From Siphonodentalium dalli (Eukaryota; Mollusca; Scaphopoda; Gadilida; Siphonodentaliidae), in contig CP136063.1 of assembly GCA_032622095.1 (NCBI GenBank), forward strand, positions 28,150,987-28,214,986: a stretch of 64,000 nucleotides of DNA, read 5' to 3'. The first letter of the stretch is position 1, and every line of letters starts with the position of its first letter. Both the position numbers and the translations under genes were made by a program. Below are positions 10,286 through 39,149 of the stretch, one piece after another. The notes below the pieces were generated by a model. It saw only the letters and a program-made list of their open reading frames with translations, had not been told where the DNA came from and did no database searches.

Positions 10286-10291
10286 GACACA
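10286..10291. other. 6-bp target-site duplication of the Polinton (GACACA; mate GACCCA at 23,509-23,514)
   Basis: The six bases before the left AGT terminus are GACACA and the six after the right ACT terminus are GACCCA, one mismatch. Six bases is the known duplication length for Polinton/Maverick integrases. The target is the CA-rich tail of a dispersed repeat, so a chance match is somewhat more likely than in unique sequence. Confidence 0.7.
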
Positions 10292-10855
10292 AGTAGTATA
10301 CGGGAGGGTCACAGTGATATATAGTTCATTGAGATTGTGGAGGAGGAAAATAAAATCGATATTGTTTTAATCCGTATTTATAATTAAATAAGTAGTTATA
10401 TAGATACGTAGATATATAGATACGTAGATATGTAGATATCGGGTATAGCTTACGCAATTACCTATAATAATATGGGAAGTCTACCTTCGACTAGTCCACT
10501 AATTTTATTGATCCCCCACTTTTCGAATGAACTGATCTAAACTCCAATTATTGATTCCTCGGCTGTGTGTGCTTTAGTATTAAGCCATTGATGGTGGTGT
10601 TAATGAGATCAACGATGCTTTTACCTTTCAATCAATCTAATTATTCCGAAAAAAATTGTTAGCTGCTTTAAAGCAAATTATATGTACTTGAGTCGGGTGG
10701 GTTTTAACACTTTCGCTGTTGAGATTTCGTTTGCAATAGAATCAGTAAATTAACCACTTACCTTTGATATAACGCATACTCCTATTTTTTCGGAATTTCG
10801 ATACAACTGATGATTAAATGTTCCCCTCAATATTCTAGGTGTCCACACACAAAAT

Positions 10856-11272
10856 TTAAATAAAACATGTGAGAACCTGGAATATCAAGGGGGGCCATGA
10901 GGCCCAAACAATATTACTCCGCCACTTGTTTAGTCCAAGCTGTAGCTTAGCTTCTCTTCTGGGATGTGGTTCGTATCCTCTGAACACCCCCGAACCTCTC
11001 CACTCGTGAATGCACCCATCGTCGCAAACTTCCGGTAGGTGGTGTTTCCACAATGGCGCTGTATCTTCCAAGTTCTCCAGCAAGGCCATTCTAGCTTTTT
11101 GTAGAACAACCAATTGACTCCTAAGTTTTAGGATGATATCGACGCGACGAAGTTCCTCTTATATTCAAACGCTGCCGTGCATTTAGCGCCATTCTGCTGG
11201 CTACACGCATAAATCCGTTGTCCTGCACTATCGTTTGAAGTATCTCCTCCAACAAGGCCCTCTGAAGAGCGT
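10856..11272 (-). pseudogene. Outward-facing frame at the Polinton end, unrecognised
   Basis: Two minus-strand frames join across a frameshift near 11,110. The upstream part (about 11,113-11,272) reads with coding-like character, including PEYYALQRALLEEILQ and QDNGFMRVASRMALNAR; the downstream part (10,856-11,113) includes RMALLENLEDTAPLWKHHLP. The frame faces the terminus, opposite to the ATPase and capsid genes. Only the last ~110 bases survive in the other arm (about 22,795-22,905) because of a deletion. I do not recognise the family. Polintons often carry small unassigned genes, so an element-encoded protein is likely, but the function is unknown. Confidence 0.45.
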
Positions 11273-11384
11273 AATACTCTGGGGTCGCTGGATTTCAGTT
11301 AATGAGCCGGGCTTTATGCACCCCTTCACTGCTATGGCTTCAGATCGGAAGGCTTACTTCGTATCCAGTTTTAATTCACAACGC

Positions 11385-11652
11385 GACTCTTATGATTAAC
11401 CCACCGCCGTCTGCTATGTATTGGTGTTTTAGTGTATGGCAACCTGGGTATGAAACATTGAAGAAAGTAGTCCGATTCCACGAGGGAATGCCTGGCATAA
11501 GTGCGTTTGATGCTAGCACTCCGTCCCTGGTTACACTGTTTGATTTTATGTTAGAATGTGATAAGAACAGTGTAACCAATCTTTTCACAAAATACACGAA
11601 TACATCACAGAAATATGAGTGTTATACTTATTCTTCAGAATATCTTCGATAA
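11385..11652 (+). pseudogene. Polinton packaging ATPase (FtsK/HerA type), first fragment
   Basis: The frame has the run INPPPSAMYWCFSVWQ followed by FHEGMPGISAFD, then a degraded Walker B-like segment and LFTKYTNTSQK. In Polinton and adenovirus-like packaging ATPases this order (PPP...WCY.EWQ, FHEGLP, hydrophobic DD, LFTKGSHHRN) is characteristic; the enzyme pumps DNA into the capsid. The mirrored copy at 22,523-22,790 retains better residues in the last part (LVDLMLECDNSV, KYSHQRNMSVILILQNIF). The Walker A loop expected just upstream is not intact. The fragment ends at a stop before an inserted copy of the element's subterminal sequence, and the rest of the ATPase resumes at 12,010. Confidence 0.75.
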
Positions 11653-11659
11653 TGTTAAA

Positions 11660-11985
11660 TCAGTATATATATATATATATTAAAACACTAGTTAAATAAG
11701 TATTTATAGATATATATAGATACGTAGATATATAAATACCGGAATAGGTGATGCGATTACTTATAATTACCTTCGACGGGTCCACTAATTTTAGTGACCT
11801 ACGACATCTGAAAATGAACCGATCTAAAGCGATAATAATGAAGTATTGATTTTTCCCTCGGTTTATTGTAATTGGCATTAGCGAATCGATTGGTGTCTGT
11901 GTGTTAGCGAAATGATTCATGCATAAGTCAATGCTTCTATCACGCTCATTGATATATTATGGTGACAGTTGACCGTGGAATCAGT
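11660..11985 (+). repeat. Internal duplicate of the Polinton subterminal region
   Basis: taagtatttatagatatata, tagatacgtagatatataaa, then cttcgacgggtccactaatt and gaaccgatctaaa resemble the terminal segment at about 10,370-10,620 in the same order and orientation, at moderate divergence. The following gagccgggctttaaacaccc also matches the sequence before the first ATPase fragment (11,302-11,325). An internal tandem duplication has therefore placed a second end-like segment inside the gene region. The other arm has the same arrangement at about 22,185-22,510. Confidence 0.65.
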
Positions 11986-12009
11986 TAATGAGCCGGGCTT
12001 TAAACACCC

Positions 12010-12250
12010 CTTTACTGCTGTAAATGGTGTGACTAATCTTTTCATAAAATACAGTCATACTAGAAACATAAATATTATACTTATTCTTCTGAATATCTTC
12101 GCACGCGATATCAATCCTTTTTAAGAATTCCAACTGCAATTTCGGGTCTCGCCAGACAAATGTTCAATACCGAATCTAAACACCTAGATGCTGTATCTCC
12201 ACCGTTCGTATACTAGCTCGTTGATTTTAAACGGGAAACAACGGAAAATG
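12010..12250 (+). pseudogene. Polinton packaging ATPase, C-terminal fragment
   Basis: The plus strand encodes the KYSHTRNINIILILQNIF segment and then, after frameshifts, GLARQMFNTESKHLDAV. The mirrored copy at 21,872-22,147 (minus) keeps a single frame with RTISLKLSYLILFKNPRV, GLARQMF and YSLVDFK, which is the usual C-terminal third of Polinton ATPases. The first ~15 codons repeat what the first fragment already contains, so this is a partly overlapping duplicate and not simply the other half of a split gene. Confidence 0.75.
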
Positions 12251-12267
12251 TGCGCCTGTGTTTGTGC

Positions 12268-12471
12268 TTAAATAGCTATTTGTGAGTGACGAAATTTCAA
12301 CCATGTCAAAACTTCTGAAGAGGAACATGGGTATTTAACTTGGTTAGTGCATCTCCCACCTCTTAAAGCTGTATAAACTAGCTTTGCACAACGCCGACAA
12401 TGATTTAATAAATTTTGTATCGCTGACTGATGCTCATATATACTAGATGGAACGTACCGATCTCGACCGGA
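12268..12471 (-). CDS. Small conserved frame between ATPase and integrase, unrecognised
   Basis: From a methionine at 12,471 the minus strand reads MSGRDRYVPSSIYEHQ and CRRCAKLVYTALRGGR, ending at 12,268. A longer frame extends upstream to 12,642 without the same coding look. The mirrored copy near 21,680-21,860 keeps the first ~30 codons but has a one-base loss inside the CRRC segment. The frame points away from the centre, opposite to the flanking genes. I cannot assign it; it might be a small Polinton regulatory or virion protein, or chance. Confidence 0.35.
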   Translation of the reverse strand, partial: SGRDRYVPSSIYEHQSAIQNLLNHCRRCAKLVYTALRGGRCTNQVKYPCSSSEVLTWLKFRHSQIAI

Positions 12472-12913
12472 CATAAGAATAAACTTGTTAAATATAAGAA
12501 TCAAATCTGTAAATCTGGAATCTGTAAAGCAAGGTCTTGTATAGTCTAAAGAAGAGAAAACGCCTGTTGCGATCAGATGGATTTCTTGTAACTTTATTGA
12601 AAAGTATAGTCCCAATTTTGAGCAGTCTTCTGGTGGTCTCATTCAATAAATAGAACACACACGAAAATTATTTTAATTGACCCTAAGTTCTGGAAGAACG
12701 GATTTAATATTGGAGGAAACTATCGTTATTCGTCCACGGCATCAGTTTCAGATTGACTTGTTTGATGTTAAGTCGCCGGAAGAGGAGAACGATAATTTTA
12801 AATATATATATATAAATATTCATCTGTATCGATGCGTTCACAAAAATAGTTTGGGCTGTCCCGATGTTAACCAAATTCGGTTCAGACTAAATTAAGGCTT
12901 TCCATATACTTAA

Positions 12914-13445
12914 ATATACGGGCGGCGTCGGAGGTGGATATGCTGTTGAAATATTCACCTCCACCAAAAACCGCCATAAACAGGAGGAATAGTAGGATAT
13001 AGACAGACTTTGTTCTTATGCTAATCAGAAATATTGCATAAACAGTATGCTGTTACCAATTTGATCCCTTTGTTATGTAAACAAAAGCAAAAATAAAAAG
13101 AAAACTTTACGTTCCATGGTTTTTGTTTAGCTCCGGATATGGTAAACATAAACAGCGTTATTTGTTACTGTCTTCTTTATATGGAAAAAATAGAGAGCGT
13201 TTATATAATTTGTGTGTGATTCACCAATAGAATTGCGCTGTGTTATGTAAACAGAAGCACAACTTCTGTAACACAAGCAGTCTCTTCTTTATTTACACCA
13301 TCGCACGTTTTGGCGACAATATACTATTTACGAGCTGATTATGTTTGGCGTATGAGCGGAACTGTATATATATATTTTGATGTTCCTTCTGTTGATGACG
13401 ATTTGAACAAATATTAATATTTCTGCAACGAACGCCCCCGTGCCT
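12914..13445 (+). mobile_element. TTAA-flanked MITE, copy 1 inside the integrase
   Basis: The 532-base insert lies between TTAA at 12,910-12,913 and TTAA at 13,446-13,449. Its ends are imperfect inverted repeats around ACGGGCGGC...GCCCCCGT. Removing it rejoins the integrase reading (KAFHIL to the next core segment). It shares most of its length with the insert at 14,070-14,598, including ccgccataaacag, cagaagcacaac and ctatttacgagctgattatg. TTAA targets are typical of piggyBac and Kolobok-type elements; no transposase is encoded. Confidence 0.75.
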
Positions 13446-14069
13446 TTAATAGAAATATGATATTCCGTGATCTGTTCTTGTAGACTGAGGGGATCGAAAA
13501 ATAAGAATATTCAGTTCTTTACTTCCCAAAATGATTATGTCAAATTTGTGATCATTGAACGATCATCGGACTCTAATGAGTCGTATGTGGAGATATTTTA
13601 CAAAGAATAACACTTTTCGTCATATCGAGATGCCTCAATGTCTACTCGACAGTTACAGTTCTTCTTATTATAGAAGTATCGGTATGACCCCAAGAAATGT
13701 CACACATGATAAAGTCGGGGATGTGTGGTGGAATCTATATGGTAAACACACGACTCCACGATCGCTCGTGGCTGAAAGAAAACTACCCTTTTCTGTCGGT
13801 GATTTAGTGAGAATCTCACACATGAAAAGAGTATTTAAAAAACAGAAAGGATACGAAGCTAACTGGTTCTCGCGAATTGTTCAGAACTACTGAGGTTCTG
13901 AGGACCACACCAACGACTTTCTGCTTGGGTGACTATTTGGGCCAAGATCTAGATGGTACTTTCTACCTGGAAGATATTCAGAAAGTTAGTGAACCAAAGG
14001 TTTCAAGATTGAACATTTTTTAAAGAGAAAATATAAATTCTTTGTTAAATTTCTTGGATATCCATTTAA

Positions 14070-14598
14070 AGATACGGGCGACCTTGGTGGTGGGTATGCT
14101 GTTAAAATATGCACTTCCGTCACAAACCGCCATAAACAGAAAGAATAGTAAAATATAGAAAAACTTTTTGTTCTGTATCCCAATCAGAAATATGGCGTAA
14201 CGGTATGTTATTGTCAGTTTTGTTTGCTATGTTATGTAAACAAAAGCAAAAAAGTTACGTTTCCTGGCTTTTGTTTAGATCCGGATAGGGTAAACATAAA
14301 GAGCGTTATGTGTTATTGTTTTCCTGATATGGAAATAATAAAGAGCGTTTATATCATTTGTGTGTGATTAACCAATATAATTGCGCTGTGTTATGTAAAC
14401 AGAAGAACAACCTCTGTAACACGAGCAGGCTCTAGCCTACGTACACCATCGTACGTCTTGACGACAATATACTATTTACACGCTGATTATGTTTGGCATA
14501 TGAACAAAACTTTATATATATATATATTTTATTATTCCTTCTGTTGATGGTGATTTGAACAAACATGAATATTTATGCAACGAACACCGCCCGTGCCT
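14070..14598 (+). mobile_element. TTAA-type MITE, copy 2 inside the integrase chromodomain
   Basis: The 529-base insert begins after TTAA at 14,066-14,069; the right side reads TTTATG, so the duplication has a change. It interrupts the chromodomain between GYP and FNA. It carries two ataaagagcg motifs (near 14,297 and 14,338), a tatatata run near its right end, and inverted ends around ACGGGCG. It is about 80-85% like copy 1 by eye. Confidence 0.72.
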
Positions 14599-14603
14599 TT
14601 ATG

Positions 14604-14783
14604 TTCAACGCCTGACTTCATACAAGGGAGTTAATTGATGGAACAGAATAGTGACAATGCGAGTCGTAGTTCGTGGTGTTGGATCGACTTCAGTAAGGAG
14701 CAAGTTACTTACATTATTGTTTTCTACTTTATAACAGCGGCTGCTGTGTTAATTACATCACTCAACAACGGAGATGAGCAACT
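14604..14783 (+). other. Segment between integrase and penton remnants
   Basis: A frame opening at 14,635-14,638 reads MEQNSDNASRSSWCWIDF and continues over the start of the penton gene in another phase. It has hydrophobic residues (YIIVFYFITAAAVLI) but is not preserved in the mirrored arm. I treat it as probably not a gene. Confidence 0.3.
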
Positions 14784-15600
14784 GTGGACAGCCCGTCAGT
14801 TGAATCATCCAGCAAGAAATTTTTGTTTTGGATGTACATTACTCTCCAGAGCAATTCTTCTAGGGTGTATTATCTGAACAATACGATAGCCAAATTCACG
14901 ACTAAACTGCCCACTTCGACCAACCTAGAAGGAAAATGGGAGGTATGGCTCGCTGAGATGCAATTTCCATATTCGTGGTTTAACATTTCTGGTGATGAAA
15001 TTTTGGTTCAAGATAATCAAAATGCTACGTGAGCTGGAATTACCACGTGACTGGCGGACAAACACTAATGTCGCATTCACCTACAACGAAGCTACACAAC
15101 TTTTAGATATGTCTGTCAGGGAAAGAACGATGGTTAAAGTCAGTTAATTGTTCGCGCATACCACGGACCTAGACGACCGCGGAATGAAGACAAGATATCA
15201 CGAATCTGGACGACCCGTCAATATCACTAGGAATAAATTATGTTCTGTGTAATTGTATTCAGACGTGGTGATATAACAAATCATCGGAGACACATACGTT
15301 CCGCTGCTTCAAATGCATGGTCGGGTTCACCAAAAACTACGGGGAGCAATGCAGTCGAATTTTCAACCGAATTTATTACCTACATATCAATAAGAAGTTC
15401 ATATATTCCAATGGGATCATTAAAATCACCTCAACGTGTCGTAAATCCCATTCTTAGCCGGTATATCAGTGGTGCCGTTAAATTTTCGCTCACTGTTGTG
15501 ACGGTAGACTGTGTGATGTTTACTATAGGAAACATGTTGTCAGGTTTTCTTTTTTCAGAGGAGCTAGAACTCAGAGGGGATACGGTAGTATTTTCGTAGT
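14784..15600 (+). pseudogene. Polinton minor capsid (penton-like) protein
   Basis: The N-terminal part reads MYITLQSNSSRVYYLNNT, FTTKLPTSTNLEGKWEVWLA and EMQFPYSWFNI, the pattern of Polinton penton/minor capsid proteins (Y.TL.SNSS..YYP.NT...F...L...I.L.G.WEV.L.E..YP). This single-jelly-roll protein would sit at capsid vertices. After a stop at 15,030 the reading continues in other frames: ELPRDWRTNTYVAFTYNE around 15,035-15,090 (cleaner in the mirrored copy), and GDITNHRRHIRSAAS around 15,262. It lies between integrase and PX, a common Polinton order, and is broken by at least two frame changes. Confidence 0.75.
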
Positions 15601-15840
15601 ATTCAAAAGGCTTTAATACCATTGATGAAAACAGCTGGCAAACATCTGCTTTCTAATGGGATAGGCTTGGCCAGTGATTTGATTGAAGGCAGCAACTTCA
15701 AGGATTCGTTAGAAAAAAGATGGGAACAAGCCAGCAGGAGAGTATTGAATGATCACACTGGGGTCAACCCTACACGACGCAAGAAGATCAGAATGAAAGT
15801 TGTTTCCTATAATATTAAGGACATATTTTGGTTGACATAA
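15590..15840 (+). pseudogene. Polinton PX-type small virion protein
   Basis: The frame reads YFRSIQKALIPLMKTAGKHL, then LSNGIGLASDLIEGSNFKDS and a basic end, NPTRRKKIRMKV, stopping at 15,840. A glycine-containing hydrophobic segment (G..L...G...ASD...G.NF) followed by a basic tail is the usual look of Polinton PX proteins, which resemble adenovirus core/pX-type small proteins. The upstream portion has an in-frame stop near 15,598, so a start at the internal methionine (about 15,625) is possible. The copy in the other arm (18,308-18,560) is nearly identical and is open through the same stretch. Confidence 0.65.
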
Positions 15841-15885
15841 TGTCTCTCATAAAAACCAAAGACGACAGAGAGCGTTAGCTGTGAA

Positions 15886-16850
15886 ATGAATCTCTTTACC
15901 CTACCGCCGAACCAGACCTTGGTTCTTGAATCATCTTGGATAGAATGCAGACCTGTAACTCACAGTAGTCCTATAGAATCGAAGCTGACTTCTTTGATCT
16001 ATACAATTATCATATTCATGTTCAGTTTAATATAGTGAGAAATGACGGGGAAGATCTTGCGATTTGGACTAATGTCACCCCTGTTAACAATTTTCTCAAT
16101 AGTATGTTTTCGCAAGTAGACATATCAATAAAAGATCAATTGAGGCCCAATCCACGAACACTTACCCGTCTAGCACCTCTCTACAGTCCTTATTCAGTTT
16201 CGCAGCTGAGTAACATTTGTTGGATCAAGGACACTACCACTGAAATTGAGACTACTAGGAAATCAAAATGCCGGGTACAAGCTCAGGAAAGAAATGTCGG
16301 CGAACAGTAAGTACTTGGACATGATTGGAAAATTAAACCTCAGCGTTTTTAATCAAAACTAATATTTGACAAATGGTGTAAATCTTCTTTTCGAAATTAA
16401 TTCGATCTAAAGATTCGTTCTGTTTGTTGTCATCAGAGGCCGACGGTACCTACAAGGTGAACGTTAAAGAAGTTACTTTATTTGTCCATTCAACCACTGT
16501 CAATTTAACTATACTAAATACTATGAAAAGCGGAAATCTCATGTATCCTATACAGCGAGTGGTTTACAATACTTTATCGGTTCCTGACGACACTTATTTC
16601 AAGGTCGAGTCCCGCGTCATGTAGTCGTCTGATGCGTGGACAACGAATCATGCAAAGGAGCAGTTGACAAAACCTTTTCAATCTGAAGAATTATAACATT
16701 CGTTCCCTAACTCGATCCCTGGATGGAATTTATATACACAGCAAGCACATAAAGCCTGATTTTTTAAATGAAGCTATGGCTACATTGCCTAATAGATTTT
16801 GTTATTTTGAGAAACAAAAACAAACAAACAAACTGAAAGCAAGAAAATAA
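15886..16850 (+). pseudogene. Polinton major capsid protein (double jelly roll), C-terminally truncated
   Basis: The start at 15,886 gives MNLFTLPPNQTLVLESSWIE, the usual N-terminus of invertebrate Polinton capsid proteins (often annotated F54H12.2-like). A frameshift follows, then FNIVRNDGEDLAIW and VTPVNNFLNSMFSQVDISI at 16,025-16,130, RPNPRTLTRLAPLYSPYS (a degraded stretch), GKLNLSVFNQ near 16,325, SSEADGTYKVNVKEVTLFV at about 16,430-16,490, YPIQRV, and in yet another frame FNLKNYNIRSLTRSLDG near 16,675-16,725. The sequence leaves the family near ALPNRF-type residues at about 16,800; the last ~100-130 residues of the normal protein are absent and replaced by the AT-rich centre of the palindrome. 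The gene order PX then capsid protein is typical. Confidence 0.85.
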
Positions 16851-16939
16851 TATCTTGGGAGTATACCTAGATAATTTTCTTACATCACGTTTTTCTGATA
16901 TTTGAAAAATTTATTTTTTATATAAATATAAATTCTTAA

Positions 16940-17235
16940 TATGAGAATATTTTTCCTAATGTTTTCTAAGAACTATTTAAATATTGGTTCTTAGATTTGC
17001 TAACAGTAAGATTTCTTAAATCCTAGAAAAATACATTCTATACATATGAGAATATTTTTCCTAATGTTTTCTAAGAACTATTTAAATATTGGTTCTTAGA
17101 TTTGCTAACAGTAAGATTTCTTAAATCCTAGAAATATACATTCTAGGATTTAAGAAATCTTACTGTTAGCAAATATAAGAACCAATATTTAAATAGTTCT
17201 TAGAAAACATTAGGAAAAATATTCTCATCTTAAGA
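16940..17235. repeat. Centre of the Polinton palindrome: ~90-bp stem with ~9-base loop
   Basis: gatttcttaaatcctaga ending at about 17,132 and its complement tctaggatttaagaaatc beginning at about 17,142 are separated by aatatacat. Complementarity continues outwards almost without mismatch (one cluster at ttagatttg versus atatttg). The left side carries the stem sequence twice in tandem. Such a stem would extrude as a cruciform in DNA or fold back in single strands. Confidence 0.9.
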
Positions 17236-17434
17236 ATTTATATTTATATAAAAAAAAAAAATTCAAATATCAGAAAAACGTGATGTAAGAAAATTATCCA
17301 GGTATACTCCCAAGATAATATTTTCTTGCTTTAAGTTTGTTTGTTTGTTTGTTTTTGTTTCTCAAAATAACAAAATATTTTTGGCAATGTAGCCATAGCT
17401 TCATTTTTAAAATCAGACTTTATGTGCTTGCTGG

Positions 17435-18263
17435 GTATATAAACTCCAAACAGAGATCGAGTTAGGGAACGAATGTTATAATTCTTCAGATTGAAAAGGT
17501 CTTGTCAACTGCTCCTTTGCATGATTCGTTGGTTAGCGACAAACTGCCGTCAGGAACTGATAAGTATTGTAAACCACTCGCTGTATAGGATACATGAGAT
17601 TTCCGCTTTTCATAGTATTTAGTATCGTTAAATTGACAGTGGTCGAATGGACAAATAGAGTAAATTCTTTAACGTTCACCTTGTAGGTACCGTCGGCCTC
17701 TGATGACAACAAACAGAACGAATCTTTAGATCGAATTAATTTCAAAAGAAGATTTACACCATTTGTCAAATATCAGTTTTGATTAAAAAGCTGAGGTTTA
17801 ATTTTCCAATCATGTCCAAGTCCTTACTGTTCGCCGACATGTCTTTCCTGAGCTTGTATCCGGCATTTTGATATCCTAGTAGTCTCAATTTCAGTGGTAG
17901 TGTCCTTGATCCAACAAATGTTACCCAGCTGCGAATCTTTTACCGGTTGGGCGAAACTGATTAAGGTCTGTAGAGAGGTGCTACACGGGTAAGTGTTCGT
18001 GGATTGGGCCTCAATTTTATTGATACGTCTACTTGAGAAAACATACTATTGAGAAAATTGTTAACAGGGGTGACATTAGTCCAAATCGCAAGATCTTCCC
18101 CGTCATTTCTCACTATATTAAACTGAACATGAATATGATAATTGTATAGATCAAAGAAGTCAGCTTCGATTCTATAGGACTACTGTGAGTTACAGGTCTG
18201 CATTCTATCCAAGATGATTCAAGAACCAAGGTCTGGTTCGGCGGTAGGGTAAAGAGATTCATT
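17435..18263 (-). pseudogene. Mirror copy of the truncated major capsid protein
   Basis: The minus-strand start at 18,263 corresponds to 15,886 in the other arm. This copy keeps a cleaner middle: TNGVNLLLKLIRSKDSFCLL followed by SSEADGTYKVNVKEFTLFV (17,533-17,769), the signature of Polinton double-jelly-roll capsid proteins. A change near 17,545-17,560 replaces the LSVPDDTYFKV-type segment seen in the left arm. Like its twin it lacks the C-terminus. The residues around VTPVNN lie near 18,060-18,090 and are degraded by small indels. Confidence 0.82.
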
Positions 18264-18307
18264 TCACAGCTAACGCTCTCTGTCGTCTTTGGTTTTTATG
18301 AGAGACA

Positions 18308-18560
18308 TTATGTCAACCAAAATATGTCCTTAATATTATAGGAAACAACTTTCATTCTGATCTTCTTGCGTCGTGTAGGGTTGATCCCAGTGTGATCATT
18401 CAATACTCTCCTGCTGGCTTGTTCCCATCTTTTCTCTAACGAATCCTTGAAGTTGCTGCCTTCAATCAAATCACTGGCCAAGCCTATCCCATTAGAAAGC
18501 AGATGTTTGCCAGCTGTTTTCATCAATGGTATTAAAGCCTTTTGAATACTACGAAAATAC
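18308..18560 (-). pseudogene. Mirror copy of PX
   Basis: The frame is the same as at 15,590-15,840, with one visible residue change near the basic tail (GINPTRR instead of GVNPTRR). It is followed by the capsid gene in the same direction. Confidence 0.62.
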
Positions 18561-18564
18561 TACC

Positions 18565-19345
18565 GTATCCCCTCTGAGTTCTAGCTTCTCTGAAAAAAGA
18601 AAATGGAAAACCTGCCAACTTGTTTCCTATAGTAAACATCACACAGTCTACCGTCACAACAGTGAGCGAAAATGTAACGGCACCACTGATTTACCGGCTA
18701 AGAATGGGATTTACGACACGTTGATGTCATTTTAATGATCCCAATGGAATATATGAACTTCTTATTGATATGTAGGTAATAAATTCGGTTGAAAATTCGA
18801 CTGCATTGCTCCCCCGTAGTTTTTGGTGAACGCGACCATACGTTTGAAGCAGCGGAACGTATGTGTCTCCGATGATTTGTTATATCACCACGTCTGAATA
18901 CAATTACACAGAAAATAATTTATTCCTAGTGATATTGACGTGTCGACCAGATTCGTGATATCTTGTCTTCATTCCGCGGTCGTCTAGGCCCGTGGTATGC
19001 GCGAACAATTCACTGACTTTAACCATCGTTCTTTCCCTGACAGACATATCTAAAAGTTGTGTAGCTTCGTTGTAGGTGAATGCGACATAAGTATTTGTCC
19101 GCCAGTCACGTGGTAATTCCAGCTCACGTAGCATTTTGATTATCTTGAACCAAAAGTTCATCACCAGAAATGTTAAACCACGAATATGGAAATTGCATCT
19201 CAGCGAGCCATACCTCCAATTTTCCTTCTAGGTTGGTCGAAGTGGGCAGTTTAGTCGTGAATTTGGCTATTGTATTGTTCAGATAATACACCCTAGAAGA
19301 ATTGCTCTGGCGAGTAATATACATCCAAAACAAAAAATTCTTGCT
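18565..19345 (-). pseudogene. Mirror copy of the penton-like minor capsid protein
   Basis: 19,124-19,333 reads MFWMYITRQSNSSRVYYLNN, FTTKLP and EMQFPYSWFNISGDE. 18,904-19,164 then reads ELPRDWRTNTYVAFTYNEAT, LLDMSVRERTMVKVSELF and HTTGLDDRGMKTRYHESG in one frame, which in the left arm is interrupted. The remainder is frameshifted. The comparison shows that the two arms decayed independently after they formed. Confidence 0.72.
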
Positions 19346-19572
19346 GGATGATTCGTGATCAATATACCGACTGACGGGCTGTCCACAGTTGCTGATCTCC
19401 GTTGTTACGTGATATAATTAACACAGCAGCCCTTGTTATAAAGTAGAAAACAATAATTTAAGTAACTTGCTCCTTACTGAAGTCGATCCAACACCACGAA
19501 CTACGACTCGCATTGTCACTATTCTGTTCCATCAATTAACTCGCTTGTATGTAGTCAGGCGTTGAACCTAAA

Positions 19573-20103
19573 GGCACGGGCGGTGTTCGTTGCAGAAATA
19601 TTCATGTTTGTTCAAATCACTATCAACAGAAGGAATAATAAAATATATATATATATATATAAAGTTTTATTCATATGCCAAACATAGTCAGCATGTAAAT
19701 AGTATATTGTCGTCAAGACGTACGATGATGTACGTAGGCTAGAGCCTGCTCGTGTTACAGAGGTTGTGCTTCTGTTTACATAACACAGCGCAATTATATT
19801 GGTTAATCACACACAAATGATATAAACGCTCTTTATTATTTCCATATCAGGAAAACAATAACACATAAGGCTCTTTATGTTTACACTATCCGGATCTAAA
19901 CAAAGGCCAGGAAACGTAACTTTTTTGCTTTTGTTTACATAACAAAGCAAACAAAACTGACAATAACATACTGTTTATACCATATTTCTGATTGGTATAA
20001 AGAACAAAGTTTTTCTATATTTGACTATTCTTTCTGTTTATGGCGGTTTTTGACGAAAGTGAATATTTTAACAGCATACCCACCACCAAGGCCGCCCGTA
20101 TCT
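19573..20103 (-). mobile_element. Mirror copy of MITE 2 in the integrase
   Basis: It begins next to TTAA at 20,104-20,107 and ends at about 19,573, beside CTAAAG. It sits at the same integrase codon position as the left-arm copy at 14,070-14,598. Confidence 0.72.
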
Positions 20104-20719
20104 TTAAATGGATATCCAAGAAATTTAACAAAGAATTTATATTTTCTCTTTAAAAAATGTTCAATCTTGAAACCTTTGGTTCACTAACATTCTGAATATC
20201 TTCCAGGTAAAAAGTACCATCTAGATCTTGGCCCAAATAGTCACCCAAGCGGAAGGTCGTTGGTGCAGTCCTCAGAACCTCTGTAATTCTGAACAATTCA
20301 CGAGAACCAGTATCCTTTCTGTTTTTTAAATACTCTTTTCATGTGTGAGATTCTCACTAAATCACCGACAGAAAAGGGTAGTTTTCTTTCAGCCGCGAGC
20401 GATCGTGGAGTCGTGTGTTTACCATATAGATTCCACCACACATCCCCGACTTTATCATGTGTGACATTTCTTGGGGTCATACCGATACTTCTATAATAAG
20501 AAGAACTGTAACTGTCGAGTAGACATTGAGGCATCTCGATATGACGAAAAGTGTTATTCTTTGTAAAATATCTCCACATACGACTCATTAGAGTCCGATG
20601 ATCGTTCAATGATCACAAATTTGACATAATCATTTTGGGAAGTAAAGAACTGAATATTCTTATTTTTTAGATCCCCTCGGTCTACAAGAACAGATCCCGG
20701 AATATCATATTTCTATTAA

Positions 20720-21238
20720 AGGCATGGGGGCGTTCGTTGCAGAAATATTAAACAAAAATTAAATCGTCATCAACAGAAGGAACATCAAAATATATATATA
20801 CAGTTTCGCTCATACGCCAAACATAATCAGCGCGTAAATAGTATATTGTCGCCCAGACGTACCATGGTGTACTTAAAGAAGAGATTGCTCGTGTTACAGA
20901 AGTTGGGCTTCTGTTTACATAACACCTCAATTATATTGGTGAATCACACACAAATGATATAAACGCTCTTTATTATTTCCATATAAAGAAGACAGTAACA
21001 AATAACGCTCTTTATGTTTACCATATCCAGAGCTAAACAAAAGCCGTGGAACGTAAAATTTTATTTTTATTTTTGCTTTTGTTTACACAACAAAGGGATC
21101 AAATTGACAACATCATACTGTTTATGCAATATTTCTGATTAGCATAAGAACAAATCTGTCTATATCCTACTATTCCTTCTGTTTTTGGTGGAGGTGAATA
21201 TTTCAACAGCATATCCACCTCCGACGCCGCCTGTATAT
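20720..21238 (-). mobile_element. Mirror copy of MITE 1 in the integrase
   Basis: It lies between TTAA at 20,716-20,719 and TTAA at 21,239-21,242. The position in the integrase is identical to that of the left-arm copy at 12,914-13,445. Confidence 0.75.
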
Positions 21239-21871
21239 TTAAGTATATGGAAAGCCTTGATCTAGTCTGAACCATATTTGGTTAACATCGGGACAGCCCA
21301 AACTATTTTTGTGAACGCATCGATACCAATGAATATATATATATATATATATTTAAAATTATCATTCTCCTCTTCCGGCGACTTAACATCAAACAAGTCG
21401 ATCTGAAACTGATGCCATGGACGAATAACGATAGTTTCCTCCAATATTAAATCCGTTCTTCCAGAACTTAGGGTCAATTAAAATCATTTTCGTGTGTGTT
21501 CTATTTATTGATTGAGACCACCAGAAGACTGCTCAAAATTGGGACTATACTTTTCAATAGAGTTCCTAGAAATCCATCTGATCGCAACAGGCGTTTTCTC
21601 TTCTTTAGACTATACGAGACCTCGCTTTGCGTAAATTACAGATTTGATTCTTATATTTAACAAGTTTATTCTTATGTGCGGTCGAGATCGGTACGTTCCA
21701 TCTAGTATATATGAGCAGCAGTCGGCGATACAAAATCTATTAAATCATTGTCGGCGTGTGCAAAGCTAGTTTATACAGTTTTACGAGGTGGGAGACGCCC
21801 TAACCAAGTTAAATTCCCATGTTCCTCTTCAGAAGTTTTGACATGGTTGAAATTTCATCGCTCACAAATGG

Positions 21872-22165
21872 CTATTTAAGCACATTATCCGTTGTTTCCC
21901 GTTTAAAATCAACGAGCGAGTATCCGAACAGTGGAGATACAGCATCTAGGTGTTTAGATTCGGTATTGAACATTTGTCTGGCGAGACCCGAAATTGAAGT
22001 TTGAACTCTAGGATTCTTAAAAAGGATAAGATATGATAATTTCAAACTTATAGTTCTCTGATTGTTATCGCGTGCGAAGATATTCTGAAGAATAAGTATA
22101 ATATTTATGTTTCTAGTATGACTGTATTTTATGAAAAGATTAGTCACACCATTTACAGCAGTAAA
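21872..22165 (-). pseudogene. Mirror copy of the ATPase C-terminal fragment
   Basis: One open frame reads MTNLFIKYSHTRNINIILIL, then NNQRTISLKLSYLILFKNPR, GLARQMFNTESKHLDAVSPL and FGYSLVDFKRETTDNV. This is the best-preserved piece of the packaging ATPase in the window. The conserved R.ISLN.HYLVLFKNPRD and ARQM patterns of the family are clearly present. Confidence 0.8.
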
Positions 22166-22184
22166 GGGGTGTTTAAACCCGGCT

Positions 22185-22510
22185 CATTAACTGATTCCAC
22201 GGTCAACTGTCACCATAATATATCAATGAGCGCGATAGAAGCATTGACTTATGCATGAATCATTTCGCTAACACACAGACACCAATCGATTCGCTAATGC
22301 CTATTACAATAAACCGAGGGAAAAATAAATACTTCGTTATTATCGCTTTAGATCGGTTCATTTTCAGATGTCGTAGGTCACTAAAATTAGTGGACCCATC
22401 GAAGGTAATTATAAGTAATCGCATCACATATTCCGGTATTTATATATCTACGTATCTATATATATATCTATAAATACTTATTTAACTAATATTTTAATAT
22501 ATATATATAT
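22185..22510 (-). repeat. Mirror copy of the internal subterminal duplicate
   Basis: This is the complement of 11,660-11,985, again separating the two ATPase fragments. A 72-codon frame at 22,255-22,473 is incidental. Confidence 0.6.
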
Positions 22511-22522
22511 ACAAATTAAACA

Positions 22523-22790
22523 TTATCGACTTTTCTCGAAGATATTCTGAAGAATAAGTATAACACTCATATTTCTTTGATGACTGTATTTTGTGAAAAG
22601 ATTGTTCACACTGTTATCACATTCTAACATCAAATCAACCAGTATAACCAGGGACGGGGTGCTCGCATCAAACGCACTTATGCCAGGCATTCCCTTGTGG
22701 AATCGGACTACTTTCTTCAATGTTTCATGCCCAGGTTGTCATGCACTAAAACACTAATACATAGCAGACGGCGGTGGGTTAATCATAAGA
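22523..22790 (-). pseudogene. Mirror copy of the first ATPase fragment
   Basis: The minus strand reads VVRFHKGMPGISAFDASTPS, then LVILVDLMLECDNSVNNLFT and KYSHQRNMSVILILQNIF. The Walker B-like aspartate is present in LVDLM, and the QNIF sensor region is better than in the left arm. The PPP..MYWCF part further upstream (about 22,745-22,785) is frameshifted. Confidence 0.75.
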
Positions 22791-22794
22791 GTCG

Positions 22795-22905
22795 CTTCGA
22801 GAGGTTCGGGGGTGTTTAGAGGATACGAACCACATCCCAGAAGAGAAGCTAAGCTACAGCTTGGACTAAACAAGTGGCAGAGTAATATTGTTTGGGCCTC
22901 AGGCC
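22795..22905 (+). pseudogene. Deleted remnant of the outward frame
   Basis: gaggttcgggggtgtttaga to the polyA-poor end matches the 3' part of the frame at 10,856-11,272. The upstream ~390 bases are missing here, with the break at cctctc/gaagcgactc. Confidence 0.5.
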
Positions 22906-23544
22906 CCCCTTGATATTCCAGGTTCTCACATGTTTTATTTTAATTTTGTGTGTGGACACCTAGAATATTGAGGGGGACATTTATTCGTCAATTGTATCGA
23001 AATTCCGAAAAAATAGGAGTATGCGTTATATCGAAGGTAAGTGGTTAATTTACTGATTCTATTGCAAACGAAATCTCAACAGCGAAAGTGTTAAAACCCA
23101 CCCGACTCAAGTACATATAATTTGCTTTAAAACAGCTAACAAATTTTTCGGAATAATTAGATTGATTGAAAGCTAAAAGCCTCGTTGATCTCATTAACAC
23201 CACCATCAATGGCTTAATACTAAAGCACACACAGCCGAGGAATCAATAATTGGAGTTTGGTTCAGTTCATTCGAAAAGTGGGGGATCAATAAAATTAGTG
23301 GACTAGTCGAAGGTAAACTACCCATATTATTATAGGTAATTGCGTAAGCTATATCCGATATCTACATATCTACGTATCTATATATCTACGGATCTATATA
23401 ACTACTTAATTAATTATATAAACGGATTAAAACAATATCGATTTTATTTTCCTCCTCATCCACAATCTCAATCACATATACATCCCTGTGACCCTCCCGT
23501 ATACTACTGACCCACACACACAAACTGTCCTCAAATATATATTA

Positions 23545-30922: not shown

Positions 30923-30972
30923 AATAGCCGGAACTATTTTTATGTGAGCCGTCTGCATTTGTCAACAAAACA

Positions 30973-32081
30973 ATGGCGACAAACCAAAACAAATCTCGTT
31001 TCGAATCAATAAACACAGAAGAATTCGTAGAAGCGAATGAAAATAAAAACACGCTGAGGAAGACATCTTCTCATCTGAAATTATTGTATCAGTTTTTGAT
31101 TGAAAGACACGATGAACATCGCAAAATTCAGGATATTCCCCAGGTAGAATTGAACAAATATCTCGCAGAGTTCGTAATAAATGTCCGGAAAGCTGACGGC
31201 ACGGAATATGAACCAAGCTACTTGCGTGGAATGATCGGAAGCTTCAATCGTCAATTGAAACGCCACAGGCATGGTTCACAGATTATGTCATAGGAAAGTT
31301 ATGCCTTTTTCGATACCAGAGAAGCCCTCCGTATGAAGCAGAGAGATCTGAGATCGCAAGGAAAGGGGTCAAAACCAAAAAAAGCAGATCCGCTTACAGA
31401 TGATGATATAGACATGTTGTATTCAAGTGGGCAGCTGGGAAAATCTTCTCCAACCTCTATTCTGAATATGATGTGGTTTCAGAACACATTGCATTTTGGT
31501 ATCCGATGGGGCTCCGAACAACACCGGCGAATATGTTGGTTGACATTTCCCTTAAAATGGATACTGAGGCAAATTTACGATATCTGGAATATCGAGAAAG
31601 AACAACAAAAACCAGGACGGGTGACGACATAAATTATACCCGGATTTGTCCTCCTAGGATGTATGAAACACCAGCAAACAAGGATCGGTGCCCCATAGAA
31701 ATGTATCTTTTCTTTGAATCAATGAGACCAACAAACTACAGTCAAAATGATGACCCGTTCTACGTGGCAGTGGTCACAAATAATCAATTCCCCGCTGAAT
31801 AGGATAGATGGTTGTTGAAAGGTCCAGTAGGAAAAAACAAAATCGAGGGAATAATGAACAAGATGGCAATAAAAGCTGACTTACCTGGTGCGAAAACGGA
31901 TGAACGAAATATCAGTAATTCCAGTGTCAGAAAAACACTCGTCCAGAAAATGTCCGACAACAATGTCCCTGATTCTCTGCAAGTCTACGTGACAGGGCAT
32001 AAAAGCACAGATTCCCTGAATAACTACAGGCAACTTAACACAACACAGAAAAGAGCGATATCTGGTATATTATCCAGCAAT
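30973..32081 (+). pseudogene. Crypton tyrosine recombinase (KIAA1958/DUF3504-like), disrupted
   Basis: The protein would cut and rejoin DNA through a tyrosine to move the element. From the ATG at 30,973 it reads RKTSSHLKLLYQFLIERH, DIPQVELNKYLAEFVINVRK and EYEPSYLRGMIGSFNRQLKR, the usual N-terminal (SAM-like, core-binding) domain of the family. A TAG at 31,291 interrupts it; the same frame continues to the box I arginine in TLHFGIRWGSEQHRRI. A frameshift near 31,530 then gives LEYRERTTKTRTGD, PRMYETPANKDRCPIEMYLF, a second stop near 31,800, then NSSVRKTLVQKM (box II arginine; the usual histidine is replaced), GHKSTDSLNNY (histidine and nucleophilic tyrosine). The total, about 370 residues, is normal for the family. 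Two stops and one frameshift mean this copy is dead. Confidence 0.88.
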
Positions 32082-32099
32082 TAGAATCAAAGCAACAGT

Positions 32100-32970: not shown

Positions 32971-32975
32971 ATATT

Positions 32976-35900
32976 AATCTTCATGTATATTACGTGAGGA
33001 CCTCGGTGGGGATAGCTTCAGTCTTGAATGTTGAAGGGACACTCGGTAATCATAACGTGAATTTAAAGGGACACTAGGCTCTCACTGGGGGTGATTATTA
33101 AAGTGACACAAGGTATTCACTATGGATGAATGTTAAAGTGACACATGGCACTCACTGTGGATGAATGTTAAAGTGACACTCGCATTGAAACTTCAAAAAT
33201 CTAAAAAATCTAAAAACTTCAAAAACTTCAAAAATCTCAAAAATTTCAAAAAAGTTTAAAAACTTAAAAAATCTAAAAAAATTCAAAAAACTTAAAAAAC
33301 TTAAAATTTTCTAAAAATAAAACAAAAATGAAAAACTTTAAAAAAAATTCCTAAATTAACAAAAAAATAAAAACTTAAAAAACTTTAACTTTTTCTAAAA
33401 TTGAAAAATAATTTAAAATTAAATTAAAATTAACTGTCTTTTAATATATCTAACCCATTGCCACTTCTAAGGGTTCCACACTACATCTGAGGGGATATTG
33501 AGTGGTCTACCCACGACTCCTAAACCCAAGAATAAGATCTAGCCCATCAGAAACTCCGCCTCCTGCAATGCCTGTCATTCGAATCTGACGCAATCCCTAC
33601 TTCTGGCGCAATGCATGAGTCATTCGAATATGGCGCAATCCCTACTTCCGGCGCAACGCCTGGGTCATTGGAATCTGACGCAATCCCTCGTGCAACCTAC
33701 CGATTGACTCCCCGCCCATTGGCTAAGCGTTGTATCACATGCTTATTATTTCATCATATCATGGAAATTCAATGTTTTGTCATCACTCTTGAGATATAAC
33801 CCATATCCACTGAAAAAGGGTGGATATCTATATATTCATAATTTTTCTTTGTTATCTTTTTTTTATCCCTCTTTTTTATCTACCACCTCATTTTTTCTTT
33901 CTTTTTATTCTCTCTTCTTTTTCTAACAGCTTCTACTCCCTCATAATCTTCGAATATCCACTTTAATCTCCAAGTTTTTGAAAAAATCCATGTTTAGTAG
34001 CACTTCCAGATTGGCTCTATAGAATTTGAAGGAGGCATCCATCTTGGATATTACTCTTTCTATGACTAAATCCGTTAGCACGTTCTACAGATGTCATATA
34101 GGCCTCTTCACATCTTGTTTTCCATAATTTATTCATTCCTAATCGCTCCATTGACTGTAACACATTAAATTACCACCTCCCCCTGTATTGGGAGTACATC
34201 CTTGATTATTAATATTTCCTCCTTCCATGGTGTGCATGTTCCTTGCTAATGTGAAGCCACACCTATTATATATATATACGACTTTAAAAGCCCGTGAAAA
34301 TATTACTCATATTATATACTTCCCTTTGAAGACCTTTGTGTGCGACAATGATCCGTAAGATTGTTTCTAAGTGACACTGGCCAGTGCAACTGATACGACG
34401 GGTATGAACTAGCCCACTTCACATCGTAACAATAATAAAAGGGACACTTCATCTATATCAGCCTCAAAACGCGTTGGTACACATCGGTGTGGAAACTAAA
34501 CCCATCACTCTTCGTCCGTCATCAGTACATAATTGTAATATAATTTTCTCAGAAACCACAGGATCCCTTTGGCTGAAATTTGGTCTCAACGTGGGATCAG
34601 AAATTATCCATGGAAGACAACAGTGTCCGTGTGGGGAGAAGCTTCGTAGTGTTTCGCTGTCGCCATGGTGTTTGTTTGGGTATAGGCATGGGTGGTGAGT
34701 GTGGTTCTCATAATGGTTCCCATGGTTCTCACATATGGGTCTAGTGTGTTTGATGGTTCTCATATGTGGCTCTCATGTGGTCTGAACTAGCCTTTACTGA
34801 CTGAGGTCCTTTAGAGCACATGTCATCACTTCACTGATAACCATTATATGGTCAAATCCATACACTATCAAACGCAATGTTTCAATAATGGGTTTTCTTA
34901 CAATTTTGACTAAATATTGGTTATATTATACGCATCAGCGATCCTTCTTAATAACGCTCTGTATATTTTCAAATGCATCGTACTAAATGGGTTTGGAATA
35001 GCCATACATGAAAGGAGGAACTGAGGTCCTGGGTATGTCGACTGCATATAGCAGTATATATGGGGTACAAACATGGACAGCAATGGGTTCCTCGTGGCTT
35101 CTGGCCTACACATGACATATTAAAGTTATCCACACCCATCGGCGCGCCTTTAATAGGCTATGAAGCTCCATACGGGGTCGAATCCTGGCATTCTCCATGT
35201 GTTTCTATTTGAACCCACATTAATAACTAATTAAAATCTTTCTCTCCGGGTTGTTTCACGCCATAACCTTGATTTGGACAGCTTGAAGGGCTAATTAAGC
35301 TTCAATTTAAATCCCAACATTTTCTTATTTGAAGAACGTATCTGGTTGAACATGTCCACCATAGTAAGCACATTTAATTCAAAGAGCTTCACACATAGTC
35401 ATACTAGTAATGATGTGTCGTTATTTACTGCAGAAATGGTCATATAGAATACAATACAACACATTTTGGTCACATACCTTAAAGGTGCAAGATATCGAAC
35501 TGACCACGTATAGAGTGGAATGACATGTCGGGGATCAAATTTTAATCAGTTACAGTATTTCGTCCATAAGGCAGTTTTGGGTGTAACATCATTGTGTATG
35601 ACGGTTCATTCATATGATACCTTAGCGATTGCACACGATACTGTCTGTTGTATTTTATATATCATATCATGTATATTAATTGCTCCATTGATGGTAGGAG
35701 TATGGCATTGGTGTCTGGTTCTTCGATGTATTCTAGTCATAGTTCATTCATATTATTACTCTAAAATCTCCATTAAATGGAGAAAATAAAGAGCCCATCT
35801 TATGTAGACTAGTGTATAAATACTGACTTCATGCATTCTTTTCATCAATTATATGTATTATAACTCCCACCAAGATAGTCTGTTATACAGAGGAAACAAA

Positions 35901-37354
35901 GCATGTACCAAGTGACAGCCTCATGTCGCGAAAGGCCTACTATGTGGACACATTTTCTTATCAAAACGCTCTATTATGTAGGCGGTTATCAACCATTGGT
36001 CTGGAAAAGGCCTACGAGCGGAACGCGTGTATACACATTTATTCGATGTACTCTTTACTCGTCGATTTCTCTTTATTGTCGTTAATTTATAGCATTATTG
36101 GTAGGAATCTAAACGCGCCGTTATATTGAGAAAATAATGCGTCAATACCAGTCAATACTGCTTTATTGGCGGTAAATGAAATTATTGCATCATGTACCGC
36201 AGCTAAACAAGCGAGACAACTGATCACAACACAAAAATTAGTAATATTTCTGAAGCTTTGAGTTGTTTGTAATACACAGTGTAAATTTTCATTATTGCTA
36301 CCATTTAAGAAAACATGCCCCCCGATAGGGCTACTATGCGAACACATGTCTATATTAACTTCACACATTCTTTATCGTTCATTCAATTATACCCCAAGCT
36401 CTCTGTTAATACAGAGGCATCAAAACATTGGTCTGGAAAAGACCTACTATGTGGATGCGTGTATACATATTTACTTGATGTATTCTTTAATCGTTCATTT
36501 CTCTTTATTGTCGTTCATTTATAGCATTATTAGAAGAAATTTAGTCTAAAATCTCCATTACATGGAGACAATAAAGAGCCCATCTGGTGTAGACTAATGC
36601 ATACATACTTACGTCATGTATTCTTTTCACCAATTATATGTATTGTACATCCTATAAATTTAGTCTGTTATACAGAGGAAACAAAGCATGTACTACGTGG
36701 CAGTTTCATGTTACGAAAAGGCCTACTATGTGAACACATGTGCATATTAATTTCACATATTCATCTCAAAACGCTCTATTATATACGGGGGTATCAAACA
36801 TTGGTCTGGAAATGGCCTGCTATGTGGACGCGTGTATACATATTTAATTCATATATGCATTCATATATCATTTCTCTTAATTGTCGTTCGTTTAATAGCA
36901 TTATTAGTATAAATATAGTCTAAAACCGTTGGTATATGGAGAAAATATAGCGTCAATACTGTTTTATTGTTGGTAACTCAAATTATTGCATCATGTATCG
37001 CAACTAAATAAGCGAAACAACTCATAAATTCTTAATAGTTCTGATGTCTATGGCAGTTTATATATATAGTATATTTTCATTGTTGTTACCATTTTAATGC
37101 CTACTTATTTCTGTGTAAGAACGCTGGTCTCCATTGTTGTTATGATTGTGCCTATAACTGTCCATATTCTTAAAGCAAGTACGGTACCTCTATGTGATAT
37201 GATGTATAAAAATTGCCATTTTCACAGGTAAATCACTTATAAACGCTCTTTAATGTATAGTTAAACTGAGTTTTCACACGCAGGTCTATGTCTTTGTGGA
37301 CTATATACGTGGTATACTTCAGTATATACACGAATTGAATGTATTCTAAGTATG
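32976..37354 (+). repeat. Left arm of palindrome 2 (inner part)
   Basis: It pairs with 43,564-47,470 and 39,541-39,918. In order it holds: ~38-base units with aaagtgacac (33,026-33,190), an A-rich tract with cttcaaaaatct (33,190-33,430), three ~47-base units with cgcaatccctacttc (33,560-33,685), pyrimidine-rich sequence (33,840-33,960), one YY1-like array unit (about 34,030-34,075), GGTTCTCATA repeats (34,680-34,780), and ~390/778-base direct repeats (35,770-36,920). Frames of 60-108 codons recur in the mirror arm only because the DNA is duplicated; none shows a domain. Confidence 0.85.
35770..36920 (+). repeat. Direct repeats within the palindrome 2 arm
   Basis: ataaagagcccatctkrtgt recurs with a ~778-base step (35,788 and 36,567), and the half-unit ggaaargscctacta..cgtgtataca, ttctctttattgtcgttcat recurs near 36,005, 36,437 and 36,808. 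The mirror set is at 43,640-44,780. Confidence 0.75.
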
Positions 37355-37959
37355 CGTATCTGATTTATGTATACGTCCGTGTTTCTTAAAGCAAATCCAA
37401 TACATATAAGTGCGTTATGACGTACATTAAGTGCCCTTTTCACTATTAAATAAAGTAAAAAAGCCCTCTACTGTAGTTAACTATTCAGTTCCACATACGC
37501 TATAAGCTCTATGGTGGTCCGATGTGTCTTATCAATATGCCATTATATGCACGAAGGTAATGTGTTCAAATATGTGGGTTGTGATGTATAATGTTAAAGT
37601 ATATAAGCACTCTTTAAGATATGCATATAAAATGTTTCATATTAGGACCATAACGAACCAATGCAAAAGATAGGGGGACATATTTTGCGCATAAAAATAC
37701 AATATTTTGTTTTTCATTCTCGATCAAAATAATGAAGGGTTGTCAATTATCAACAAAAAACAATACTTTGAAACAAAAACGATGACATAAGAACGAATAT
37801 CCAAGAGGTAGTGTGAAAATAACCCTCACATTTATAAAAAAAAAATTAAAAAAAATTCAGTTTTCGAGTAAGTCCTTCAAAATCATTGAATGTTTTCGTC
37901 TATGTTGGATCAAATTTGACACAAAAATCAATTAGCTCACTAACAGTTCGCGCAATATC

Positions 37960-39120: not shown

Positions 39121-39149
39121 AAGGCATCTGATAGTGTCATTATACAACG

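Follow-up and report, generated by a model that had tools for sequence, protein, structure and literature searches.

A recurrent palindromic, Polinton-derived element in the genome of Siphonodentalium dalli, with a probable snap-back ancestry

Architecture of the palindromic element

A 64,000-nucleotide stretch of DNA from the mollusc Siphonodentalium dalli (assembly GCA_032622095.1, contig CP136063.1, positions 28,150,987 to 28,214,986 of the forward strand; hereafter the window) contains, at window positions 10292-23508, a Polinton-derived element that folds on itself. A sequence-only reading, made without database searches, had described it as a Polinton in the form of one giant palindrome, probably mobilised as a snap-back genome. 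Comparison of the window with itself, by repeat search and self-BLAST, recovered inverted arms over nearly the whole interval. The outer ends, AGTAGTATACGG from 10292 and CCGTATACTACT up to 23508, read AGTAGT...ACTACT, that is, the (AGT)2//(ACT)2 motif, and together with the terminal inverted repeats they are the ends by which Polinton/Maverick elements are recognised. The flanks GACACA (10286-10291) and GACCCA (23509-23514) are alike at 5 of 6 bases and lie in CA-rich surroundings; ends and flanks agree with what had been read before.

Global alignment of the two arms gave 6263 aligned positions with 259 mismatches (119 transitions and 140 transversions), corresponding to 95.9% identity, and 35 indel blocks. 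The arms are complementary as had been claimed, but not quite from end to end: 379 bp at about 11000-11378 are found only in the left arm, about 102-105 bp are duplicated beside the centre in the left arm only, and pieces of 35 bp and 20 bp are absent from one or the other arm. The central loop, previously given as 9 bases, has 7 nucleotides (nt; 17134-17140) and is bordered by perfect 34-bp stems (17100-17133 and 17141-17174). Against the mean arm divergence of 4.1%, two patches of perfect identity stand out, at 15764-16111 (a single 348-base run) and at 13515-13714. None of 2000 shuffles reached a mismatch-free run of 348 bp, and the patches may reflect conversion, selection or both.

Palindromes are a recognised assembly problem, and an inverted duplication of reads might be suspected here. 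The mismatches and indels between the arms, the arm-specific sequence and the presence of more loci of the same design make such an artefact exceedingly improbable; perfect arm identity, which had been named as its hallmark, is not seen.

The features of the element are listed below (position, strand, description, basis); letters a to g denote loci with related elements in the same genome, and P0005 and P0008 are proteins of relatives.

10286..10291, no strand: left flanking 6-bp repeat GACACA (read from sequence)
10292..17133, plus: left palindrome arm, about 6.8 kb (repeat search, arm alignment)
10292..10594, plus: segment like the terminal inverted repeat of full-length copies (89.5-93.5% to the capsid-side ends of a, c, e, f)
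10292..11285, plus: terminal segment like the polymerase-side end (92-94% to a-f; g 91%, from position 40)
11000..11378, plus: 379 bp of the left arm only (arm alignment)
11280..12258, plus: packaging-ATPase-like pieces, left arm (match to P0005, tblastn)
12780..12911, plus: integrase core piece, left arm, broken by insert 1 (tblastn)
12910..13449, plus: insert 1, interspersed repeat within the integrase, TTAA on both sides (sequence comparison)
13497..13866, plus: integrase C-terminal pieces, left arm (protein search, tblastn)
14066..14601, plus: insert 2, same repeat family, TTAA on the left, TTTAT on the right (82% to insert 1)
15868..16763, plus: major-capsid-like pieces, left arm (ends at residue 333/434 of P0008)
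16781..17029, plus: partial copy of interspersed repeat R, left arm (genome matches)
16924..17145, no strand: duplication of about 102-105 bp at the centre, left side (repeat search, arm alignment)
17134..17140, no strand: 7-nt loop with the 34-bp stems 17100-17133 and 17141-17174 (read from sequence)
17141..23508, minus: right palindrome arm, about 6.4 kb, mirror of the left (repeat search, arm alignment)
17391..18280, minus: major-capsid-like pieces, right arm (tblastn)
19573..20103, minus: insert 2, right arm (insert comparison)
20310..20712, minus: integrase pieces, right arm (tblastn)
20720..21238, minus: insert 1, right arm (insert comparison)
21241..21309, minus: integrase core piece, right arm (tblastn)
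21881..22795, minus: ATPase-like pieces, right arm (tblastn)
23509..23514, no strand: right flanking 6-bp repeat GACCCA (read from sequence)

Gene content of the arms

Proteins of the relatives were compared with the element by tblastn at a cut-off of E <= 1e-3, and ATPase-like, integrase-like and capsid-like pieces were found in both arms, all in broken form. In the left arm the capsid match goes no further than residue 333 of P0008, a relative of 434 residues, the C-terminal part being missing, and the integrase pieces of both arms are interrupted by insert 1 and by frame breaks. None of three polymerase-like pieces from the full-length copy c matched the element at this cut-off, in agreement with the reported absence of a polymerase. 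Given the ATPase, integrase and capsid pieces in both arms, the truncated capsid gene and the lack of a polymerase-like match, the arms appear to be the integrase/capsid half of a Polinton in mirror image. Of the half gene set proposed earlier, pieces resembling these three proteins were found, while its "penton" and "PX" were confirmed by nothing. Because no polymerase was found in it, we classify the element as a putative non-autonomous derivative and, strictly speaking, not as an autonomous Polinton.

Used as protein queries, the integrase pieces of the window matched one protein, P0001, and the capsid pieces matched none. Stop-free element pieces had no significant match when scanned with Pfam and PHROGs, PDB sequence searches with element pieces and an Rfam scan of the element gave no match, and in IMG/VR no relative turned up for the two pieces used, one from the capsid and one from the integrase. 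A degenerate capsid-motif pattern matched two viral contigs and was discarded as a lead: L001 is phage-like, and when 153 window pieces were compared with the fetched viral sequences by tblastn, nothing was found.

Full-length Polinton relatives in the same genome

A search of the same 2.2-Gb genome with the first 1001 bp of the element yielded at least 68 matches (40 of 103 candidates scored), and ten loci of 17-20 kb were taken. Four of them, a, c, e and f, have one and the same terminal repeat of about 300 bp at their two ends. These copies are 15.3-18.4 kb long, and their 6-bp flanking repeats agree at 5 of 6 bases in a and at all 6 in c, e and f. The capsid/integrase side as in the window is present in a, c and e, and polymerase-like pieces are present in all four; copy f has both ends but is without a capsid/integrase match. 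Loci b, d and g, which have the polymerase-side end but no recognisable other half within 20 kb, were not counted as full-length. The outer 994 bp of the element resemble the polymerase-side end of a-f (92-94%), and the rest of the arm resembles the capsid-side half of a, c and e (65-83%).

The polymerase-like pieces of copy c are putative assignments made by eye from sequence motifs, and Pfam gave no polymerase match for them. Piece P0005 of the same copy, which we take to be ATPase-like from a Walker-type motif seen by eye, had a weak Adeno_IVa2 match (E 0.0037) below the cut-off. The integrase piece was likewise putatively assigned by eye from motifs; its family matches were weak (rve, 0.052; IS481, 5.1e-6), and it had no significant match in PDB, where the best integrase chains gave E 0.18 or worse. 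In NCBIfam, searched with 7 proteins, the integrase piece matched IS481/IS3 weakly, and the match of P0001 looks like chance. A protein search with the open capsid piece of copy c found 95 relatives at E <= 0.001, several of them named F54H12.2-like, and one of the five relatives scanned carries the Pfam double-jelly-roll domain.

Genome matches of the polymerase-like piece P0003 number at least 139 (135 of 1040 candidates scored), many of them in long open frames, so that possible helper elements appear to exist in this genome. Among the matches listed for these scored candidates, none lies inside a palindrome. The distant relatives of P0003, at about 30-39% identity and in long open frames, suggest further Polinton-like families in the genome.

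Palindromes of the same design recur and appear to have been inserted as such

When the inner arm (window 14640-15640) served as a query, with 32 of 32 candidates scored, 12 loci matched at 70-79%, each in one orientation and with a, c and e included; these one-orientation Polintons form a group separate from the palindromes. The other 12 loci make up the window's own group. Both orientations of the inner arm are found at seven of them (the window, k, l, C1:248.5 Mb, q, p and h, the second piece in h being just 69 bp), and one orientation is found at n, i and j and in two small fragments. Locus n is an eighth inverted-arm locus, with both outer arms present (95.4% and 97.3% alike) and, in its right arm, a large insert flanked by 98.7% direct repeats. 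Inverted arms were confirmed by reading in h (arm pieces 86-97% alike), k, l and n, and over 2.2 kb each in p and q, and at C1:248.5 Mb the inverted design is known from match tables alone. The expectation that palindromic Polintons recur is borne out by these eight inverted-arm loci, window included, in a single assembly. We estimate that they derive from six insertions, represented by the window, h, n, p, q and the k group, on the assumption that C1:248.5 Mb is part of the last.

Loci k and l, which might be taken for two insertions, are duplicates of a single one: trees of segments S2-S4 pair left arm with left and right with right (supports for left/right pairs 0.87/0.65 in S2, 0.18/0.96 in S3 and 0.995/0.99 in S4), and the likeness continues past the arms. 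Loci i and j (C6) were considered as half elements or parents and rejected. They are 96-98% alike over kilobases of sequence outside the element, both break off close to arm position 4690, and they constitute one truncated insertion that was duplicated. The palindrome count does not include locus m (C9:108.78 Mb), where the order of the arm pieces is mixed and self-inverted arms are lacking.

In all three palindromes read at both ends, 6-bp repeats flank the whole palindrome, as is characteristic of Polinton/Maverick target-site duplications: those of the window and of h (TGCGTG/TGCATG) agree at 5 of 6 bases, and those of n (CTCATG/CTCATG) at 6 of 6. The flanks compared, 2 kb for the window and about 300-390 bp for h and n, have merely short repeats in common. 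The occurrence of the design at several places, with 6-bp flanking repeats that differ between places, argues that the palindrome itself was inserted and was mobile in palindromic form, as had been supposed. An origin in place, in which a full-length Polinton was made palindromic by break repair or by chromosomal inverted duplication, could by our reasoning apply in principle to one copy with both flanks kept. It is very unlikely for the group as a whole, given the same inverted design at several loci, three different flanking repeats and the dissimilar flanks of the window, h and n.

The search for a full-length parent, which the sequence-only reading had recommended, succeeded in part: full-length relatives are at hand in a, c, e and f, but no polymerase-bearing, one-orientation member of the window's own lineage was found among the scored inner-arm candidates.

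Differences in the ends were also observed. Loci h, i and n (L025, L027, L037, L038) differ from the window in their outermost sequence and have an additional end segment lying beyond the part that they have in common with it. Since the altered ends of h and n are the same in both arms of each, the lineage appears to have changed its ends at least once. Locus o, at C9:32270.2-32272.8 kb (L039), is a 2.6-kb miniature with Polinton-like ends, CATATA on both sides and end segments repeated in inverted and direct orientation. At C4:137.82 Mb and C4:138.68 Mb, end segments in inverted pairs, separated by about 5.5 kb, are known from a match table alone.

The palindromes share a centre at an interspersed repeat

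A query across the window centre found at least 104 matching places (40 of 241 candidates scored), and one across the centre of locus q at least 47 (40 of 250 scored). One-orientation copies match the window-centre query only up to about 16782; inward of this position, at the truncated capsid gene, the sequence of the palindromes belongs to an interspersed repeat, R. Six loci match the q centre at 90% or more (q, n, p, l, C1:248.5 Mb and k), and the window matches it at 93-96% without the loop part. At 33 other loci the likeness is about 73-80%, with no second inverted half listed; because loop and arm part are contiguous at many of these, the palindrome loop is taken as part of R.

Alignment of the centres revealed the R-derived loop in k, l, n and p and a shortened form in q, and the matches place it at C1:248.5 Mb as well. 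Other copies with the same centre at the capsid gene, which had been proposed as a check, were found at these six loci. The left-arm edge of R is kept in k, l and p, and CTCAGT...ACTGAG stands at the loop base in k and l. The pair CTCAGT/ACTGAG fits a strand that folded back on six bases and primed itself, an event that we infer. For the suggested snap-back origin there is accordingly this motif in k and l, duplicates of one insertion, together with a palindrome that has kept its ends, the strand switch itself being conjectural. The window copy is without the R-derived loop and has a tight 7-nt centre of its own, unlike its relatives, whose loop is longer. The loop of l has the opposite orientation to that of k (L031/L032, L033/L034), a probable sign of recombination between arms.

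The arms change in concert between lineages

Inserts 1 and 2, two members of one repeat family (82% alike), are filled in both window arms, and their sites are empty in both arms of k and of l. Both arms of h carry insert 1, the right arm being deleted at the insert-2 place, and the right arm of n carries both inserts. About 740-830 bp at arm position 2425 occur in c and in both k arms and are absent from both window arms. In a quartet-site test of the window against the k arms (five segments, 2059 columns), 102 of 105 sites joined the arms of one copy, the other pairings receiving 2 and 1. Arm distances in S4 were 2.4% within the window, 7.0% within k and 9.4-10.3% between them, and about 20-22% from a, c and e. 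The inserts, the deletion and the quartet sites indicate that the arms evolved in concert between the window lineage and the C1 (k) lineage.

If the palindrome had a single origin, the arms were re-matched after the window and k lineages split; otherwise there were several origins at the same repeat. Non-palindromic members of the lineage could have folded back at the same R on several independent occasions, each time giving a palindrome, and the likeness of the arms would then reflect recent origin. Such repetition would account for the sorting of the window and k arms by copy and for the window's own loop. Yet the shared loop and centre favour a single origin, since centre orientation, position and loop sequence are common to copies with and without both inserts (k, l versus n). 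Moreover, all 12 one-orientation loci at 70-79% fall in the other group, the lineage yielded no polymerase-bearing member, and the single-orientation members of the window group come down to n (which has both outer arms), the truncated and duplicated i/j and two fragments. We consider repeated origins unlikely.

A single origin could also be combined with arms kept alike by ordinary chromosomal gene conversion and not by replication of the element. Long chromosomal palindromes are known to undergo conversion, an identical run of 348 bp exceeds what even mutation would leave, and the inverted loop of l would be a trace of recombination. However, the arms of k and l were not reset after duplication, left still pairing with left and right with right, and the arms have drifted in the window (by 4.1%), in h (86-97% alike) and in n (95.4% and 97.3%), so that conversion as the principal cause seems to us rather improbable.

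Proposed origin and mobility

Our results make it probable that the element is a copy of a non-autonomous foldback Polinton lineage that was born by snap-back, moved in trans and had its arms re-matched via a folded or half-length intermediate. Protein-primed replication of Polintons is itself inferred by analogy with adenoviruses. An ancestral Polinton would have carried repeat R in or beside its capsid gene; a strand copied past R would have folded back on the 6-nt complementarity CTCAGT/ACTGAG, primed itself and copied the integrase/capsid half a second time. The polymerase and the end of the capsid gene would have been lost in this way, and an end capable of replication and integration would have been kept on both sides. 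Full-length relatives would supply the proteins in trans, a likely arrangement, as had been suggested, because the integrase is broken in both arms, no polymerase match was found and polymerase-like relatives exist elsewhere. The displaced strand of the palindrome could then fold to a hairpin with a double-stranded end, and replication or mismatch repair from this hairpin would make one arm follow the other as template or repair partner before the helper integrase inserts the resulting product. In favour of this, the divergence of the window arms (4.1%) is comparable to that of the 300-bp terminal repeats of the four full-length copies (3.3-5.7%).

More tentatively, and with somewhat less than even confidence, we suggest a self-perpetuating satellite lineage in which the folded half-genome is inherited and mobilisation re-matches the arms, so that insertions, deletions and helper-derived ends would reach both arms and be handed down.

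Several observations weigh against this account. The evidence consists of sequence, with no replication intermediate observed. No end was found for k and l, both right arms of which stop at arm position 2134, and flanking repeats were read for the window, h and n. In n and q the loop has lost its left edge, and in p this edge is shortened; the exact junction therefore comes from k and l and nearly from p, and the tight centre of the window may be a plain loop deletion or a second fold-back. Within the window group (window, h, n and i/j), arms of the same copy are no closer than arms of other copies: in S1 the window arms differ by 5.2% and the right window arm differs from the left arm of n by 3.1%, and in S3 the corresponding values are 3.6% for the two window arms and 2.6% for the left window arm and j. 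The S2 tree leaves the window arms unresolved and pairs the n arms with a support of 0.30, the k arms do not group in the S5 tree, and the quartet test of the window against h has 3 sites to draw on. Given the window-group distances, re-matching at every move is not demonstrated; the pattern fits a burst from nearly identical arms. The 348-bp perfect run, moreover, hints at arm-to-arm conversion after insertion.

Other structures in the window

A second long inverted structure was observed at 32972-47485, where 32972-36991 pairs with 43561-47485 (91.8%) and 36974-37356 pairs with 39534-39918 (93%). A reverse-transcriptase-like reading stretch, seen by eye at about 40235-42700, lies within its right arm, and the structure looks like another element with very long terminal inverted repeats or a foldback element. 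The interval 30928-32084 resembles, by eye, a tyrosine recombinase of the Crypton type, and its first piece gave sub-threshold Pfam matches.

Comparison with known systems

Strand switching in linear plasmids and viruses with protein-primed replication is expected to yield mirror-image dimers of one end. Such palindromic derivatives are extrachromosomal, whereas the copies described here are integrated, dispersed and decayed. The titles and abstract openings of the literature surveyed contain no report of palindromic derivatives of these plasmids or viruses.

One study describes intact vertebrate Mavericks with terminal inverted repeats of 46-1,447 bp, end motifs of the (AGT)2//(ACT)2 type and 6-bp target duplications (PMC8097293). 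The element resembles Polinton/Maverick elements in its ends, its 6-bp target duplications and its integrase-, packaging-ATPase- and capsid-like pieces, and full-length copies with terminal repeats of about 300 bp and polymerase-like pieces occur in the same genome. Unlike them, it carries half of the gene set in two mirror-image copies and lacks the remaining half, and an inverted repeat of 6.4-6.8 kb fills the element, in contrast to the range given for vertebrate Mavericks (PMC8097293).

Snapback defective genomes of adeno-associated virus, as described in PMC8235507, are similar in being subgenomic, folded-back DNA of one genome half; they belong to a parvovirus and are found in virus stocks, whereas the present copies are dispersed, integrated and putatively protein-primed. 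Galileo foldback-like transposons share very long inverted repeats and copies made of nothing else, but as described (PMC3573991) they have a P-superfamily transposase, internally repetitive arms and no viral gene module, and the genes of the element are Polinton-like. By analogy, the element would work like a snapback satellite genome.

Palindromic Polintons are not reported in the titles and abstract openings surveyed, a set with subscription papers mostly outside it, and the string "palindrom" is absent from PMC8097293. The component parts are already known, and within this surveyed literature the dispersed palindromic lineage is not reported; our own palindrome search covered this one genome, plus IMG/VR with two pieces. 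As putatively helper-dependent Polintons of palindromic shape, they have no predecessor known to us. A natural lineage in which palindromes have a common centre, are flanked by duplications and change in both arms together is a sequence record of how such genomes may copy themselves, switch strands and undergo repair. For annotation, two mirror-image integrase modules without a polymerase need not mean that one insertion is nested in another or that the assembly is at fault.

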